Of a stretch of DNA of 10,425 bases, positions 2,100-9,668 are shown one piece after another. Source of the stretch: an uncultured Bacteroidota bacterium (GTDB lineage Bacteria; Bacteroidota; Bacteroidia; Chitinophagales; Chitinophagaceae); contig CAMLKS010000052.1 in the NCBI GenBank assembly GCA_946480675.1, forward strand, positions 1 to 10,425, written 5' to 3'. Within the stretch, counting starts at the first letter, position 1, and every line of letters starts with the position of its first letter. The notes under the pieces are model-generated. The model was not told the DNA's origin, searched no databases, and saw only the letters and a list, made by a program, of their open reading frames with translations. Position numbers and translations under genes: made by a program.

Positions 2100-2606
2100 A
2101 TGGAACATGATATGGAAACACAGCAACTGATAACACCTGAGCAATTACTGAAACACTGGAAAGGACACCGCGACCTGACACGCCGTGTGATTGAAGCTTT
2201 TCCCGAAGATAAACTGCTGAACTACAGCATAGGCGGCATGCGCACCTTTGCCCAGCTGGCGCACGAACTGCTGGACCTGGCAGATACCGGTGTGCAGGGT
2301 ATGGCTACCGGCAACTGGGAAAGCCGCCCGGGTATGAACCACCATAAAGATGCATTTACATCGAAAGAAGCGCTGCTGGCTGCATGGGATGAAACTACAA
2401 AGCGTATAGACGAAATGTTTCCGCAGATAACGGCAGAGCGCTGGCTGCAGGTAGATAAGGCTTTTGGCCAGTTTGAAAACACGACGATAGGCACACTGAT
2501 GTATTTCCTGGATAATGAGAACCACCACCGTGGACAGGGATATGTGTACCTGCGTGCCTTAGGTATAGAACCACCGGCATTCTGGGACAGGGCAAGCTTT
2601 GATTAA
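2100..2606 (+). CDS. DinB-family protein
   Basis: The 168-residue protein is predicted to be a four-helix bundle of the DinB/YfiT-like superfamily, cytoplasmic because it has no signal peptide. Support comes from His55 in AHELLDLADTG and His142/His143 in NHHRGQGYVYLRALG. These match the family's usual metal-binding histidines on helix 2 and near the start of the last helix. The C-terminal GIEPPAFWDR ending is typical of the family. Members bind a divalent metal. Some are thiol-dependent transferases, but most, including this one, have no known substrate. The length fits the family. A second in-frame ATG at 2112 (METQQL) is an equally plausible start. The gene stands alone: it is divergent from the PKD lipoprotein and convergent with the next gene across a strong terminator. 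Confidence 0.85.
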   Translation: MEHDMETQQLITPEQLLKHWKGHRDLTRRVIEAFPEDKLLNYSIGGMRTFAQLAHELLDLADTGVQGMATGNWESRPGMNHHKDAFTSKEALLAAWDETTKRIDEMFPQITAERWLQVDKAFGQFENTTIGTLMYFLDNENHHRGQGYVYLRALGIEPPAFWDRASFD

Positions 2607-2667: not shown

Positions 2668-3093
2668 TTATTTGCCTTTGGCGTAAAATTGTTTTATTCG
2701 CTCTTTTTCTTCCTTTGTGAACATGACCTCGTAGGCTATGCCAAAGATATTATTGCCCATCATGTCATCTTTTCTGAATGCCGTGCTGGGTTCTTCTTCA
2801 TACACCGTAATACTTTGAAATGATTTTAAAGGGATCTGTATGATGTGCATGCCCATACTGTCGTTGCAATTCAGATATTGCGATTTGCCATCCTCACCGT
2901 TCATTGCAAACTGATGCGGATTTTGAAACCCGATATAGGTTTGCGTAGCCGTATCGAGCAGGGTAATATGCATCTGGCTGTCTATAGCTGTAAGGTAAAC
3001 TAAGACAGGTTTTTTATATGCGTAGCCTGTGAAGGTTTCCTGCGCGTGCAGAGAAGATGTAAGCAGTGTAAGGTAGAGAAACAGAAGGCGCAT
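2668..3093 (-). CDS. Small exported protein of unknown function
   Basis: This ORF encodes 141 residues. Residues 1-18 are a clear Sec signal peptide (MRLLFLYLTLLTSSLHAQ) with probable cleavage after HAQ, so the mature protein of about 123 residues is periplasmic or outside the cell. There is no lipobox Cys and no later membrane segment. The mature part looks beta-rich (YKKPVLVYLTAI, MHIIQIPLKSFQSITVYEEE) and ends in a charged helix (FTKEEKERIKQFYAKGK). I do not recognise a family. Its start lies 8 bases after the stop of the upstream gene at 3102, so the two are almost certainly co-transcribed and may act together in the cell envelope. The bidirectional terminator follows immediately. Confidence 0.75.
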   Translation of the reverse strand: MRLLFLYLTLLTSSLHAQETFTGYAYKKPVLVYLTAIDSQMHITLLDTATQTYIGFQNPHQFAMNGEDGKSQYLNCNDSMGMHIIQIPLKSFQSITVYEEEPSTAFRKDDMMGNNIFGIAYEVMFTKEEKERIKQFYAKGK

Positions 3094-3101
3094 ATGTATT
3101 G

Positions 3102-3803
3102 CTAATGGTTACTGATAAGGCTATACTCATAATAACCCTTGTTGGGATGTTGTATGGTAATGACAGGGCGGCCTACCCATACGCCCATACCTATCTCGCA
3201 CCTGATAAAATACACTTGGCCAAAACGTATATCCAGTTCTTTTTCCGCGCGTGTTTCAATTGTACCCCACAGTTTCACAGGGCCTTCTTTTTCAATCTTT
3301 ACCACGCAAGAGCTATAGTTGCGCACCCGGCATACTTCCTCGTCATTTACATGCAACCAATAGTTTAATAAACCTCCAACAGAACTATGTGGCCGATAAA
3401 TATACAGCAATGCATATTTCGCAGTGTCGTTTATCAGCATAGGTGTAACTTTATCCTGCATAATGGCACCCATCAGACTTTCAAGGCTGTCTGTGTAATA
3501 CGCTTCGCCCCATACGCGGTAGCAGGTGCTTCCTAATACGCTGGGTTCTTTCAGCTTGGTTATTTTTAAGATGTTACCCCCTTTTTTTATTACTTTTTCT
3601 TTGGCCTCATCCATCACCCTTTCATACCCGCAGTTTATCTTAAAGCCACCATCGCCTACTTTTATCTTCCCCAGGAATTTAATGTTGGCAGGTGCTTCGG
3701 CTTCTTCTTCTATTACCAATACATCTTGCGTGTTTTGTGCGGTTGCCATGGTGGTAAAACAAACGAGGCAGGCTAAAAAGATGTTTCTTATAGTTGGGTA
3801 CAT
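3102..3803 (-). CDS. Exported protein with DUF2846-like domain
   Basis: The start at 3803 gives 233 residues with a good signal peptide (MYPTIRNIFLACLVCFTTMATAQ). An ATG at 3824 would add seven residues that do not improve it. Residues about 40-105 form one compact unit with two Cys (C58, C94) and the pattern 'AKEKVIKKGGNILKITK...STCYRVWGEAYY'. This loosely recalls RcsF/DUF4156-type folds, which is inference only. Residues about 128-217 fit DUF2846: 'ALLYIYRPHSSVGGLLNYWLHVND', then a Tyr/Phe-rich strand, then 'GMGVWVGRPVITI'. The DUF2846 family is a small beta-sandwich on bacterial envelope proteins with no known activity. The gene heads a two-gene unit with the exported protein 8 bases downstream, and is divergent from the membrane protein at 3879. 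Confidence 0.75.
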   Translation of the reverse strand: MYPTIRNIFLACLVCFTTMATAQNTQDVLVIEEEAEAPANIKFLGKIKVGDGGFKINCGYERVMDEAKEKVIKKGGNILKITKLKEPSVLGSTCYRVWGEAYYTDSLESLMGAIMQDKVTPMLINDTAKYALLYIYRPHSSVGGLLNYWLHVNDEEVCRVRNYSSCVVKIEKEGPVKLWGTIETRAEKELDIRFGQVYFIRCEIGMGVWVGRPVITIQHPNKGYYEYSLISNH

Positions 3804-5540: not shown

Positions 5541-5544
5541 CGAT
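5529..5544. promoter_or_regulatory. Probable ArsR operator (perfect inverted repeat)
   Basis: ATCGTAA (5529-5535) and TTACGAT (5538-5544) are exact reverse complements separated by TT. The dyad centre lies inside the -7 box of the arsR promoter and the right arm contains the first two bases of the ATG at 5543. A bound ArsR dimer would cover the -7 box, which fits autorepression lifted by As(III) or Sb(III). The assignment is by position and symmetry. Confidence 0.7.
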
Positions 5545-5878
5545 GAATATGGGTACGACAAAGTCAGACTTATTTACGAAGAAACAGAATGAAATAGCCG
5601 CCATGGCCAAAGCCATAGCACACCCGGCACGTATAGCTATACTGCAGGAACTGCTGAAAGCCAATGCCTGCATTTGCGGCGACCTGGTAGATGAGCTGGG
5701 GCTGGCACAAGCCACTATTTCGCAACACCTGAAAGAGCTGAAAAACATAGGATTGATACAAGGCAACGTAGAAGGTACCAGCGTATGCTACTGCATCAAC
5801 CCGAAAGTATGGAACAGCTACAGGCAGGTATTTGAAGTATTTTTTAAAGAGGTGGCTGCAAGCGATAAGTGCTGCTAA
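5543..5878 (+). CDS. arsR: ArsR/SmtB-family As(III)-responsive repressor
   Basis: This encodes 111 residues of a winged-helix repressor, expected to bind DNA as a dimer without metal and to let go when trivalent arsenic or antimony binds. The order is: helix with [15 protein letters not shown] (24-38), the family's HPxRxxIL motif; [13 protein letters not shown] (41-53), in which C43-x-C45 aligns with the As(III) site ELCVCDL of classic ArsR; recognition helix [17 protein letters not shown] (56-72); and wing strands to CYCINP (82-87). Extra Cys at 82, 84, 110 and 111 could add ligands; their role is not known. The ATG at 5543 is kept as given, but the promoter position makes 5549 at least as likely. 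The gene leads the arsenic cluster, with arsM 56 bases downstream. Confidence 0.93.
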
Positions 5879-5934: not shown

Positions 5935-6774
5935 ATGAAAAGCGACAATGAACTGAAAGAGCTGGTAAGGCAGAAATATGCCGAAATAGCCATGCAAGAC
6001 AAAGAAACCAATATGGCATCGTGCTGCGGTGCAGGTGGCTGTTCTACCGAAGTGTATAACATCATGAGTGATGACTATAGCCAACTGGAAGGTTATAACC
6101 CCGATGCAGACCTGGGCCTTGGTTGCGGATTGCCTACCGAGTATGCACAGATGAAAGCCGGTGATATGGTGATAGACCTGGGTAGCGGTGCGGGTAACGA
6201 CTGCTTTGTGGCACGGGGCGTAGTAGGCGAAACCGGTAAGGTGATAGGTATAGACTTTACAGAGCAGATGATAGAGAAAGCACGTGCGAATGCCGAGAAA
6301 CTGGGGTATAACAATGTAGAATTCAGGCAGGGGGATATAGAGAAGATGCCCGTGACGGCGAACGTAGCCGATGTAGTGGTGAGCAACTGCGTGCTGAACC
6401 TGGTGCCGAATAAGGACAACGTTTTCAAAGAGATATACCGCGTGCTGAAAACCGGTGGGCACTTCAGCATATCGGATGTGGTGCTGGTGGGCGAGCTGCC
6501 GGAAAAACTGCAACAGGCTGCTGAGATGTATGCCGGTTGCGTATCGGGTGCTATACAGCGCGATGCATACCTGGCCCTCATTAATAAGAATGGTTTTAAG
6601 AATGTCATTGTGCAGAAACAGAAAGCGATAGTGATACCCGATGATATACTGAAGAACTATTTAACAGACGAAGAAATAACAGCTTATAAAGAAAGCAAAA
6701 CAGGCATCTACAGCGTAACGGTGTATGCCGAAAAACAGGCAGGTTGTTGTGAGCCGGGTTCGGGCTGTTGTTAA
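5935..6774 (+). CDS. arsM: Arsenite S-adenosylmethionine methyltransferase
   Basis: The protein (279 residues) methylates As(III) using S-adenosylmethionine and glutathione or thioredoxin-type reductant, in the cytoplasm. The products are methylated and finally volatile arsenicals. The SAM-binding Rossmann fold begins at VIDLGSGAGNDCFVA (79-93). The acidic end of strand 2 is IGIDFTEQM (104-112). Motif FRQGDIEKMP is at 130-139. The three cysteines that bind and act on arsenic in ArsM enzymes are present: C64 in GLGCGLP, C152 in SNCVLNLVPNK and C202 in AGCVSGA. Two additional clusters occur: C30, C31 and C36 near the N-terminus, and a C-terminal CCEPGSGCC tail (271-279), typical of many bacterial ArsM proteins and probably able to hold As(III). 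The start ATG gives the usual MKSDNELKELVRQKYAEIA opening. It lies 56 bases after arsR, with an operator-like repeat between. Confidence 0.95.
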   Translation: MKSDNELKELVRQKYAEIAMQDKETNMASCCGAGGCSTEVYNIMSDDYSQLEGYNPDADLGLGCGLPTEYAQMKAGDMVIDLGSGAGNDCFVARGVVGETGKVIGIDFTEQMIEKARANAEKLGYNNVEFRQGDIEKMPVTANVADVVVSNCVLNLVPNKDNVFKEIYRVLKTGGHFSISDVVLVGELPEKLQQAAEMYAGCVSGAIQRDAYLALINKNGFKNVIVQKQKAIVIPDDILKNYLTDEEITAYKESKTGIYSVTVYAEKQAGCCEPGSGCC

Positions 6775-6797: not shown

Positions 6798-6953
6798 ATG
6801 GAAAGAACGAAAGCATATCTTTTGCGCCATAAACGTTTTGGCATCATACTCGCGGGAATCATAGGCCTGAACATGGCCTATGGTTTCGACCCGCGGTTTA
6901 CTATCATCAACCTGCTGTGGATAGCCATCAGCGTCATAAAAATAGACCGATGA
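6798..6953 (+). CDS. 51-residue membrane protein in arsenic operon
   Basis: Starting at ATG 6798 (MERTKAYLLRHKR) the ORF has 51 residues. A start at 6768 would overlap arsM and add ten polar residues, which is less likely. A basic N-terminus is followed by two hydrophobic stretches, about 14-30 (FGIILAGIIGLNMAYGF) and 34-48 (FTIINLLWIAISVIK), separated by a DPR turn, so a helical hairpin in the inner membrane is probable. The stop TGA overlaps the start of arsC in ATGA (6950-6953), and arsM ends 23 bases upstream. This tight placement argues that it is a real, translated gene. I recognise no family; it has no Cys and no motif of ArsB, Acr3 or ArsP. A role beside a pump, or in passing arsenicals through the membrane, would be speculation. 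Confidence 0.6.
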   Translation: MERTKAYLLRHKRFGIILAGIIGLNMAYGFDPRFTIINLLWIAISVIKIDR

Positions 6954-7339
6954 AGAAAATACTGTTTGTGTGTATAGAAAACAGCAACCGCAGCCAGATG
7001 GCCCAGGCTTTTGCAAATATGTATGGCAATGGAAACGTAGCGGGCTACAGTGCGGGTTCCAACCCCAGCGGTAAGGTGAACCCCAAAGCGATAGCCGCTA
7101 TGCAGGAACTGGGCTACGACCTGAACACGCATCATAGCAAGACACTGGACGAAGTAAAAGCCGAAGCACCTTTTGATGCCGTGGTGACTATGGGCTGTGG
7201 CGATGCCTGCCCGTGGATGCCTGCAAAGCAACATATAGACTGGCAGATACCTGACCCGCGCAATATGGAACCTGCAGATTTTAATACTGTGCGCGACCGG
7301 ATAGGTACATTAGTTAAAGAATTGATTGCTACTTTATAA
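6950..7339 (+). CDS. arsC: Arsenate reductase, low-molecular-weight phosphatase family
   Basis: The 129-residue protein is the thiol-dependent arsenate reductase type built on the low-molecular-weight tyrosine phosphatase fold, cytoplasmic. It would convert arsenate to arsenite. The P-loop is C8-IENSN-R14 (CX5R) followed by SQMAQAFA. The distal loop VVTMGCGDACP supplies C83 and C87, as in the Cys cascade of pI258-type ArsC. The general-acid Asp is in PDPRN (D102). N13 replaces the second Cys seen in the CxxxxCR loop of staphylococcal ArsC, which is not essential. The start at 6950 gives MKKILFVC, the normal beginning; the 4-base overlap with the membrane ORF implies translational coupling. 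A phosphatase role cannot be excluded by sequence, but the context and three cysteines favour arsenate reduction. The electron donor (thioredoxin or another thiol) is not shown. Confidence 0.9.
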   Translation: MKKILFVCIENSNRSQMAQAFANMYGNGNVAGYSAGSNPSGKVNPKAIAAMQELGYDLNTHHSKTLDEVKAEAPFDAVVTMGCGDACPWMPAKQHIDWQIPDPRNMEPADFNTVRDRIGTLVKELIATL

Positions 7340-7466: not shown

Positions 7467-9668
7467 ATGGACGAAGCGCTATATAAGAGTGTGTATGAGC
7501 ATGGCCCCGTAGCGGTGATGCTGGTATCTGCAACGGGCGGTGCCTTTATTATTCAAGATATTAACCGTGCTTGTGAAAACCTGATGGGTGCCACAGCCGT
7601 GAATGCAGACGGCCATCGTGCCGATGCATTACTGGCCATGCTCACCGGTGCATCGCAGGTAGCTATAGCTTCACATCTATTGCAGGCGGTAAGTGAGAAG
7701 AAAATCATAAGCATGCACTTGTCGGGGCCCGATGGCGACTCGCGGCCAATAGATATTACCATCAAAGCCATCGACGATGGTGCGCTGCTGATGGTGACAC
7801 TGGAAGAAAACAAAATGCAATCGCTGATAGCAGAACAACAGCGTTACGAGAAATTTTTAAGAGAAACACAACAGGCATCGCGCAGCGGTACATGGGAAAT
7901 AAACCTGGTTGAAAATACATCTGTATGGTCGGACGGGTTGAAAGAGCTGCATGAGCTGCCTGCCGATTATCAGCCAACAGTAGAAACCTCTATGGATTTC
8001 TATACATCGGATGCCCACCGGCAATTGTCGACACAGGCCGTAACCGATGCCATAGCCAAGGGCCAACCCTTTGATATAGAAGTAGAAATACGAACTGCGA
8101 AAGGTAACCTGCGATGGCTGCGCAGTACGGGTAGTGCAGAGCTGAAAGATGGCATGCCCATACGCATATTTGGCACCGCACAGGATATTACCGATATAAA
8201 AGAAACGAAGCAGGCCCTTATAAAATCGAATGATTTGTACCAATCGCTGCTGCAGGCTGTAGAAGGGGTGGTATGGGAAGCCGATGCGCAGACATTTGAG
8301 TTTACCTTCATCAGCGAAAGTGTGACGCGTATATTAGGCTATACGCCGCAGGAATGGCTGGTATCGCCCACCTTCTGGAAAGACCATATATATAAGGATG
8401 ATACCGACTATGCCATCACTTATTGCCATGCACAAACACAGCAACTACGCAGCCACTCCTTCGACTACCGGATGATAAAAGCCGATGGTACACTGGCATG
8501 GATACGCGATTTTGTATCGGTAGTAGCAGCAGAAGGCAAGCCGCATTTGCTGCGCGGCATCATGGTGGATATTACGGAACCGAAACTGATGGCCGCCCTG
8601 GACCACCTGGAGAAAGAGGTGCTGGAAATGAGCGTGCAAAAGGATGTGCATGTGGAAGCCATACTGCACAAGTATGTGCAGGGCATGGAGCAGCTTTTTC
8701 CCGATATGAAATGCTCTATAATGGCTGTGAACAGTGATTGGCTATATTCGTGGGCCGCACCCTCATTGCCGGCAAGCTACCTGCAGCAGATAGAAGGAAT
8801 GGAGATAGGGCCGCTGGCAGGGTCCTGTGGAGCAGCAGCCTATGAGCGCGAAGTAGTTATTGTAAATGATATAGAAAATGATGTGCGCTGGGCGCCATAT
8901 AAACAATGGATATTGCCATATGGACTGAAAGCCTGCTGGTCGCACCCGGTAATGGATACACATGGTGATGTGATAGCGGTGATGGGGGTGTATTATGATA
9001 AAGTGAAAGCGCCTACTGCTACGGAAATGGAAGTGATATCGCGCACGGTGGCCATACTGAAGCTGATACTGGAATACAAACAGTATTCGGAAAAGATGCA
9101 GGAGATGAATATGGTGGTGCTGCAGGGCCAATCGCTGGCCAACTTTGGCAGTTGGCAATGGGAAATCAACAGTAACAAAGTAACCTGGTCGGATGTATTG
9201 TATAAGATATACGGCCTGGATAAGAAAACCTTTAAGGCCGACTTTGAAGGCTATCTTTCGCGCCTGCACCCCGATGACCGGGCACGTGTGCAGCATACGG
9301 TAGAAAGTGTACTGCATACGCATGAAGATGTGGTGTTTGAAGAACGCATTGTAAGGCCTGATGGCGAGGTGAGGCACCTGAAATCGTGGGGACGGCTGAT
9401 ACTGAACAGCGAGGGGGAACCGCAGAAAATGATAGGCGCCTGCCTGGATATTACAGCAGCCAAAGAGACGGAAAACAAAATGCAGGAAATAGCCTGGCAG
9501 CAATCGCACGTGGTGCGTGCCCCACTGGCCACCCTGATGGGGCTGGTAAACCTGCTGGAAGAAACATCTACCGACAACCGCCAGCACGAAATACTGCAGC
9601 ACATAAAAGCTACCGCTACGCAACTGGATGATGTGATACGCAGCATCAGCCAGAATACGAAGGGTTGA
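7467..9668 (+). CDS. Multi-PAS/GAF sensor protein with histidine-kinase DHp helix but no ATPase domain
   Basis: The protein has 733 residues and no membrane segment. Domain order: a diverged PAS (about 5-113), a helix (114-137), PAS (138-245, GTWEINLVENTSVWSD, closing GTAQDITDIKE), PAS (255-373, closing RGIMVDITEPK), GAF (395-537, with 'AGSCGAAAYEREVVIVNDIE' and GLKACWSHPV, the well-known SCGTAA/RACWS type), PAS (551-665, FGSWQWEINSNKVTWSD and LHPDD), and a DHp helix pair (672-733). The H-box is SHVVRAPLATLMGLVNLL with His681. The chain ends 52 residues after that His, so the ATP-binding HATPase_c domain is absent and no partner with one follows. It may be phosphorylated by another kinase, heterodimerise, or only signal. 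The start at 7467 is the first ATG of the PAS region. The 127-base gap before it shows no promoter or terminator I can defend. Confidence 0.88.
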   Translation: MDEALYKSVYEHGPVAVMLVSATGGAFIIQDINRACENLMGATAVNADGHRADALLAMLTGASQVAIASHLLQAVSEKKIISMHLSGPDGDSRPIDITIKAIDDGALLMVTLEENKMQSLIAEQQRYEKFLRETQQASRSGTWEINLVENTSVWSDGLKELHELPADYQPTVETSMDFYTSDAHRQLSTQAVTDAIAKGQPFDIEVEIRTAKGNLRWLRSTGSAELKDGMPIRIFGTAQDITDIKETKQALIKSNDLYQSLLQAVEGVVWEADAQTFEFTFISESVTRILGYTPQEWLVSPTFWKDHIYKDDTDYAITYCHAQTQQLRSHSFDYRMIKADGTLAWIRDFVSVVAAEGKPHLLRGIMVDITEPKLMAALDHLEKEVLEMSVQKDVHVEAILHKYVQGMEQLFPDMKCSIMAVNSDWLYSWAAPSLPASYLQQIEGMEIGPLAGSCGAAAYEREVVIVNDIENDVRWAPYKQWILPYGLKACWSHPVMDTHGDVIAVMGVYYDKVKAPTATEMEVISRTVAILKLILEYKQYSEKMQEMNMVVLQGQSLANFGSWQWEINSNKVTWSDVLYKIYGLDKKTFKADFEGYLSRLHPDDRARVQHTVESVLHTHEDVVFEERIVRPDGEVRHLKSWGRLILNSEGEPQKMIGACLDITAAKETENKMQEIAWQQSHVVRAPLATLMGLVNLLEETSTDNRQHEILQHIKATATQLDDVIRSISQNTKG

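Follow-up and report, generated by a model that had tools for sequence, protein, structure and literature searches.

A small two-helix protein gene next to arsC in Bacteroidota genomes without an intact Acr3: a candidate route for arsenite exit

Arsenate enters cells through phosphate transporters, and ArsC reduces it to arsenite. The locus described here raises the question of how arsenite is disposed of when an ars operon encodes no pump. It lies in a 10,425-nucleotide stretch of DNA (hereafter the window) from an uncultured member of the Chitinophagaceae (Bacteroidota; assembly GCA_946480675.1, contig CAMLKS010000052.1), in which arsR, arsM and arsC are accompanied by a short ORF predicted to code for a membrane protein (Table 1). 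A Pfam scan found no pump gene among the eight proteins of the window that it covered, as the initial annotation of this DNA had held, and its placing of the ORF, with a 23-base gap on one side and an ATGA overlap on the other, proved correct. The ORF, of 51 codons, reads MERTKAYLLRHKRFGIILAGIIGLNMAYGFDPRFTIINLLWIAISVIKIDR followed by a stop codon; the gap separates it from the end of arsM at 6774, and its stop codon shares the ATGA with the start of arsC, whose ATG is at 6950-6952. The overlap suggests that the small gene and arsC may be translationally coupled, and the small gene is probably co-expressed with the ars operon. The ArsC protein scores 86.9 bits with NCBIfam TIGR02689, under the cut-off of 157.6. 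Further downstream, positions 7467-9668 code for a 733-residue PAS/GAF protein with a terminal HisKA domain, for which Pfam matched no ATPase domain; ORFs of 734 residues occupy its place in two related loci, L007 and L008.

Table 1. Positions of the ars features in the window and of the relatives of the small gene in viral contigs
Feature	Position	Strand	Evidence or remark
arsR, ArsR/SmtB-type repressor	5543..5878	+	Pfam HTH_5 45 bits (cut-off 22); NCBIfam HTH_metalloreg 69.6 bits (cut-off 55)
arsM, arsenite methyltransferase	5935..6774	+	NCBIfam PRK11873 363 bits (cut-off 263)
ArsM C-terminal Cys tail CCEPGSGCC	6745..6771	+	Reading of the sequence; upstream genes of other loci mostly have a tail of this kind
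51-residue gene: basic N-terminal helix, helix 12-28, GFD turn, helix 32-50	6798..6953	+	Homologues, AlphaFold2 model
ATGA overlap, small gene stop / arsC start	6950..6953	+	Recurs in 24 of the 51 loci measured
arsC, low-molecular-weight-phosphatase-type arsenate reductase	6950..7339	+	Pfam LMWPc 68 bits (cut-off 23.2)
Viral relative in L129	4998-5120	+	
Viral relative in L130	4995-5120	+	
Viral relative in L133	near 2463-2586	+	
Viral relative in L134	near 3060-3185	-	

Comparisons at the sequence level indicate that the small ORF is a real, conserved gene of an undescribed family under selection. A search with the single sequence returned 92 proteins at E<=0.01, its own included, and a 28-row profile of diverse members returned 656, of which 120 are listed. 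The small ORF differs from those of its two nearest relatives at 2 (L007) and 6 (L008) of 51 codons, all of them synonymous, and the protein is identical, whereas arsC shows 19 synonymous and 6 non-synonymous differences from L007, and 21 and 10 from L008. The median pN/pS is 0.34 over 1587 pairs with pS >0.1, drawn from 57 loci, among which some places are represented twice. Between distant pairs, synonymous change is almost saturated, with a dN of ~0.09-0.31 in the long form of the protein. Thus, the selection that had been supposed for this ORF is borne out by its synonymous-only differences and its many homologues. Homologues beside arsM or arsC, whose absence would have refuted the initial annotation, were found. 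All 81 aligned sequences, which are not independent of each other, share residues L24, G29, D31, F34, N38 and W41; a protein outside that set (L048, genome G159) has Glu at the position of D31. The absence of Cys noted earlier holds for the window copy and fails for the family, since several relatives have one Cys, which many short forms carry in helix 2 and some long forms in helix 1. Neither the long nor the short form had a match in the plasmid collection.

The AlphaFold2 model computed from the 81 sequences agrees with the basic N-terminus and two-helix hairpin first proposed: it predicts helices at residues 2-10, 12-28 and 32-50 (pLDDT 77.6, pTM 0.46). The basic N-terminus suggests, by the positive-inside rule, that it is located in the cytoplasm. 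The short form common in the class-wide sample described below has ~41 residues and ends in NIIWLFV or a similar motif. Its second helix is predicted to have 12 residues (pLDDT 80.7, pTM 0.45), which would be short for a full membrane crossing. Each helix has its conserved residues concentrated on a single face (p 0.0054 and 0.0016 by permutation), the pattern that packing of helices or assembly would produce. Foldseek returned no PDB match for the predicted fold, and the best match among PDB sequences had an E-value of only 0.94.

We then turn to the genes around the small gene in other genomes, using 52 distinct cellular loci: 32 from genome_contigs, 21 from the class-wide sample (four being shared), the window, L004 and L006. 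Of these, 51 have an arsC gene downstream, on the same strand. For the genome_contigs loci, which were found with the alignment, the count is 31 of 32, L015 being the exception; arsC is 431 bases away in L021, and a methyltransferase gene is inserted before it in L038. The class-wide sample comprises 295 genomes drawn regardless of arsenic and yielded 21 strong matches (E <1e-12) in 20 genomes of 13 families, all with arsC next to the small gene, that of genome G089 being split by a frame break. Seven weak matches out of 28 (E 5e-5 to 0.01) were not counted as carriers. One of these is a remnant in G019 (L059, reverse strand, near 1501-1560), where all that is left of the small gene, directly before arsC, is its C-terminal part and Acr3 is encoded elsewhere in the genome. 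The distribution among nearer kin is patchy, with the small gene in 5 of 15 genomes of the genus and 6 of 59 relatives overall.

The spacing between the two genes is tight. The ATGA overlap recurs in 24 of 51 loci measured, and 46 of the 51 have the arsC start no more than 40 bases away; in these counts the motif pattern missed L049, one of the 52 loci, and L015 and L051 gave no arsC start, arsC being found beside the small gene in both L049 and L051 on separate inspection. Three ArsC motif types follow the small gene, C(I/V)ENSNRSQ, CTGNSCRSQ and CIHNSARSQ, and identity to the window ArsC falls to 33% among the 21 proteins aligned.

The upstream gene is variable. In the 32 genome_contigs loci, it is DUF6428 in 19, arsM in 8 and arsR alone in one, with none of these in four. 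Two DUF6428 examples, in L014 and L016, were verified with Pfam PF20001 (215 and 202 bits); elsewhere the label is based on tblastn likeness or a PF20001 scan. Thus, of the two neighbours between which the gene had been placed, arsC is constant and arsM is not, and a main role as an ArsM-specific helper is rejected because arsM is upstream in only those eight loci. Most upstream genes end in a Cys tail of the type C(C)xPGxGCC, similar in ArsM and DUF6428 (L001-L058; DUF6428 in L068-L096), and the window ArsR likewise ends in CC. The ArsM tail is a likely ligand of trivalent arsenic. A handover by Cys tails specific to the small gene was also considered and rejected, as DUF6428 proteins encoded without a small gene nearby bear the same tail.

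No other ORF of at least 70 codons with at least two hydropathy-predicted helices was found between arsR and arsC in the 52 loci scanned, 1500 bases upstream being taken in the 12 loci where the arsR motif was not found. In three of the 52 carrier loci (L047, L049 and L056), arsC is immediately followed by an ORF for which three helices are predicted. The one in L056 (genome G158) is Cys-rich, and a similar ORF follows DUF6428 in L091 (G172), the two having ~176-184 residues; the L056 protein has Cys motifs and could itself carry metal, perhaps as another metal transporter. In L034, an ORF without helices, GNAT-like from a reading of its sequence, is inserted between DUF6428 and the small gene. 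A HWENVY-type methyltransferase recurs near arsC or the small gene (L027:6569-7186, L031:6782-7378, L038:6138-6749, L004:2059-2676 and L055:1661-2272).

Relatives of the small protein are also encoded by open reading frames in four IMG/VR viral contigs (L129, L130, L133 and L134; Table 1). Clear phage genes are present in three: a DNA polymerase gene in L129, endolysin and RNA ligase/tail attachment genes in L130/L131, and, in L134, genes for a single-strand DNA-binding protein and a UvsX-like recombinase that flank the small gene. The viral nature of L133 is unproven. A search for arsC in the four records, which may be fragments, found none, the search having no positive control. This suggests that the small protein probably does not need a neighbouring arsC in order to act, and it may use that of the host. 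INPHARED phages had no match to the small protein, and a second degenerate pattern, for the short form with Lys and Cys/Phe, found nothing in viral contigs. The window protein had no match in PHROGs either; the best E-value for the 81 members was 0.0049, to a family of unnamed function that six of them matched.

We next consider the usual arsenite pumps. Acr3 exceeds the TIGR00832 cut-off in 112 of the 295 class-sample genomes, and DUF6428 is present in 103. An intact Acr3 was found in 0 of 20 carriers vs 112 of 275 non-carriers (Fisher p 5.8e-5) and, among genomes with DUF6428, in 0 of 18 carriers vs 47 of 85 others (p 6.7e-6). These tests ignore kinship, for which a within-family permutation corrects partly: over the 103 DUF6428 genomes and two carriers without DUF6428, 5.29 carriers with Acr3 were expected and none was observed (p 0.0003). 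Within genera, the permutation was not significant (p 0.11), the sample being too small. Genome G089 has Acr3 in broken pieces beside a second arsC; when it is counted as present, the p-values become 0.0013 overall and 0.0006 within families. The 43-bit match of G136 is far under the Acr3 cut-off.

Five further carriers from the search of relatives also lack Acr3 (0 of 5). ArsB and ArsP were each found in 0 of 25 carriers at E<=1e-5, with 3 of 14 and 8 of 14 control genomes positive, respectively. The initial suggestion that the small protein pairs with a distant pump is thus disfavoured, Acr3, ArsB and ArsP having been sought as such partners and none found intact in the 25 carriers. Aquaglyceroporins occur in 8 of 25 carriers vs 5 of 25 Acr3-bearing controls, and 17 of the 25 carriers have no intact member of the Acr3, ArsB, ArsP or aquaglyceroporin families. 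The genome nearest to the window among those compared (G001) has none of the four, and G012, whose small protein is identical, has a MIP protein. In two carriers, a second arsC adjoins a MIP gene, forming an AqpS-like pair (G158:C64:212218-213254 and G206:C48:18201-19105).

The gene clusters were also tallied by arrangement. The order DUF6428-small gene-arsC occurs 19 times and small gene-arsC twice. The acr3 clusters are DUF6428-acr3-arsC (5), DUF6428-arsC-acr3 (5), arsC-acr3 (22, one being the broken copy of G089), acr3-arsC (9) and arsC-acr3-arsC (1). The small gene is present in none of the 42 clusters with acr3 beside an ArsC matched by profile A3, and acr3 occupies its very slot, between DUF6428 and arsC, in five genomes. 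A further 68 arsC matches have no such partner beside them, and other phosphatases may be among them.

Being without a pump does not oblige a genome to have the small protein, given that DUF6428-arsC operons without the small gene exist in Acr3-less genomes. Of the 85 non-carrier DUF6428 genomes, 38 also lack Acr3, and ArsB was present in 2 of the 20 of those tested. Both the small gene and acr3 are missing from 12 DUF6428-arsC clusters, of which 11 belong to genomes without Acr3, six of the 11 coming from one genus (g52); in G116, G269 and G302 at least, the DUF6428-arsC gap is roomy enough for other genes. These clusters argue most strongly against the small protein being strictly needed. 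Examples are found in G062, G108, G145, G177, G207 and G237 (five of them in L110, L103, L123, L104 and L125). Inspection by eye revealed no divergent small ORF in the pump-less loci of G145, G207, G108, G177, G237 and G077, nor in that of the Acr3-bearing G097.

The small gene is thus under selection and, in cellular genomes, closely linked to arsC; no genome of the sample has it together with an intact Acr3. Its occurrence where the usual arsenite pump is missing suggests that it may be part of arsenic disposal. Our tentative reading is that the small protein could take the place of the pump, perhaps as a small oligomeric arsenite exit acting downhill of ArsC, as AqpS does; we infer the oligomer, the pore and the substrate. 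In such a scheme, arsenate enters via phosphate transporters and ArsC makes arsenite, raising its concentration inside above that outside. The hairpin protein (~40-58 residues, with both termini predicted inside by the positive-inside rule) would oligomerise via its two conserved helix faces, and arsenite would leave downhill. Arsenite that remains might be handled or buffered by ArsM or DUF6428, both of which have a Cys tail at the C-terminus. That the small protein assists transport had been one of the first proposals, and it stays the best reading of the pattern, as a supposition.

An exit of this kind works only if arsenite is made inside; hence, the gene would be expected to accompany arsC, as aqpS does in Sinorhizobium. 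According to excerpts of published accounts, AqpS, an aquaglyceroporin encoded in the ars operon of Sinorhizobium meliloti, substitutes for ArsB and disposes of the arsenite made by ArsC (PMC6205960; PMC4435449). The constant arsC, the absent pump and the variable other partners fit this logic. The acceptance of the small gene by three ArsC motif types is also expected if the link is the product of ArsC. Further points in favour are the five genomes with acr3 in the slot of the small gene, the lack of another multi-helix ORF between arsR and arsC, the conserved helix faces, and the remnant of the small gene in G019, which has an Acr3. Against a pore, the 41-residue form with its predicted 12-residue second helix would be very small. 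Counted against an exit role are the clusters with neither gene, the 38 Acr3-less DUF6428 genomes that are not carriers, the non-significant result within genera, the broken Acr3 of G089, the weak match of G136, the three-helix ORFs of L047, L049 and L056, the viral copies for which no arsC was found, and the lack of a PDB match. It is less likely than not that the hairpin family and ArsC alone replace Acr3/ArsB in the 13 families of the class sample and that phages have acquired the gene as a trait in its own right.

There are known cases of small membrane proteins tuning transporters, such as MgtS, which interacts with PitA. The small protein might similarly bind and regulate a large transporter of the host, for instance a phosphate transporter, so that less arsenate is taken up and no pump is needed. 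Such a regulator would account for the three ArsC motif types, the several upstream contexts and the viral contigs with the small gene alone. However, it predicts neither the association with arsC in 51 of 52 loci nor the exclusion of Acr3, and we consider it unlikely.

The small protein might instead hold ArsC at the membrane, or join it to a general exporter yet to be identified, so that arsenite is made beside its exit. The basic N-terminal helix and the tight coupling of the two genes (ATGA in 24 and spacing within 40 bases in 46 of the 51 loci) speak for this arrangement. Nevertheless, the same small family is followed by three ArsC types, down to 33% identity, four viral contigs have the small gene with no arsC found, and anchoring does not by itself predict the exclusion of Acr3. 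The anchoring of ArsC or ArsM suggested in the initial annotation is weakened by the ArsC diversity and the viral contigs, and we would not expect it to be the main function.

The pattern could also reflect the history of the lineages, if cassettes made of the small gene with arsC and of another ArsC with acr3 had been swapped for unrelated reasons, the small protein being an accessory, for example in membrane repair or sensing. In keeping with this, where the small gene is missing, DUF6428 is often followed by a longer ArsC-like protein of ~205-213 residues (judged from 30 of the 111 DUF6428 matches), Acr3-less operons without the small gene exist, and the within-genus test is not significant (p 0.11). 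Yet the within-family permutation still gives p 0.0003, and acr3 is also found beside profile-A3 ArsC, in 42 clusters, none with the small gene; a purely historical explanation thus seems rather improbable. Finally, that the ORF is a chance reading frame or a mere leader for arsC translation, as its shortness and its overlap with arsC in 24 of 51 loci might suggest, is rejected as scarcely credible in view of its protein conservation with saturated synonymous change, its 656 relatives, its predicted two helices and its synonymous-only changes in L007 and L008.

If the small protein is an exit path, it would be a minimal pore that is easy to study, and it would explain the arsenate resistance of some Bacteroidota that lack any known pump. 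As a regulator, it would represent another way of dealing with arsenate. Either way, two genes are enough to test the question directly. The ars operon is known; an operon with this hairpin as its only core membrane part is new. We found no paper on the small gene in the open-licence PMC literature, mostly judged by titles and the starts of abstracts, and none naming DUF6428. To our knowledge, the hairpin family would, if an exit device, be the smallest for arsenic. A survey of ars operons in ~2,500 strains counts, in the excerpts available, ArsY (Acr3), ArsB, ArsP, MFS and MIP transporters and minor groups (PMC4435449), and the small protein is none of the transporter groups counted there. 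Operons with this short unnamed protein as their only membrane protein were probably overlooked by such surveys.

How does the small protein compare with known families? The window protein has no Pfam match. It matches none of the Acr3, ArsB and ArsP models (TIGR00832, PF02040 and PF03773), which are not among the families matched by the 81 members either; the early statement that it resembles no known arsenic transporter thus holds for those searched here. The 2TM domain (PF13239) provides the UniRef name of one relative (P0073, from Flaviaesturariibacter amylovorans), but the window protein does not match it and only 4 of 81 members do, with a best E-value of 0.036. The sole NCBIfam match of the window protein is CBU_0592 (NF047864), a model of 72 positions with which it shares a weak likeness of the last hairpin (N..Y...P...NL.WI.I), at 14.7 bits vs a cut-off of 25. 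This model is matched by 29 of the 81 members (best E 0.0019), and an hhalign comparison of the small-family profile A4 with the NF047864 member in L127 gave a probability of 55 and an E-value of 1.2e-4. A CBU_0592-type hairpin is a possible distant origin of the small protein.

MerF and MerE are likewise small two-helix membrane proteins encoded in a metal-resistance operon. They transport mercury, as importers relying on Cys pairs, whereas members of the small family have no Cys or a single one, and the window protein none. The Acr3 operons of the class share the DUF6428 and arsC partners, with acr3 in the same slot in five genomes; in contrast, the Acr3 model (TIGR00832) has 327 positions, the two families do not match each other, and no intact copy exists in the sampled carriers. 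The closest parallel in context is the AqpS-ArsC pair, in which, in the excerpts of its description, a membrane protein other than Acr3 or ArsB adjoins arsC in the place of the pump (PMC6205960). AqpS belongs to the Pfam MIP family, and aquaglyceroporins are recognised by a MIP domain with two NPA motifs, unlike the small protein with its ~40-58 residues and two main helices; the 51 residues of the window copy include no NPA. Like AqpS, the small protein is encoded in one operon with arsC, in carriers in which the searches found no intact Acr3, ArsB or ArsP.
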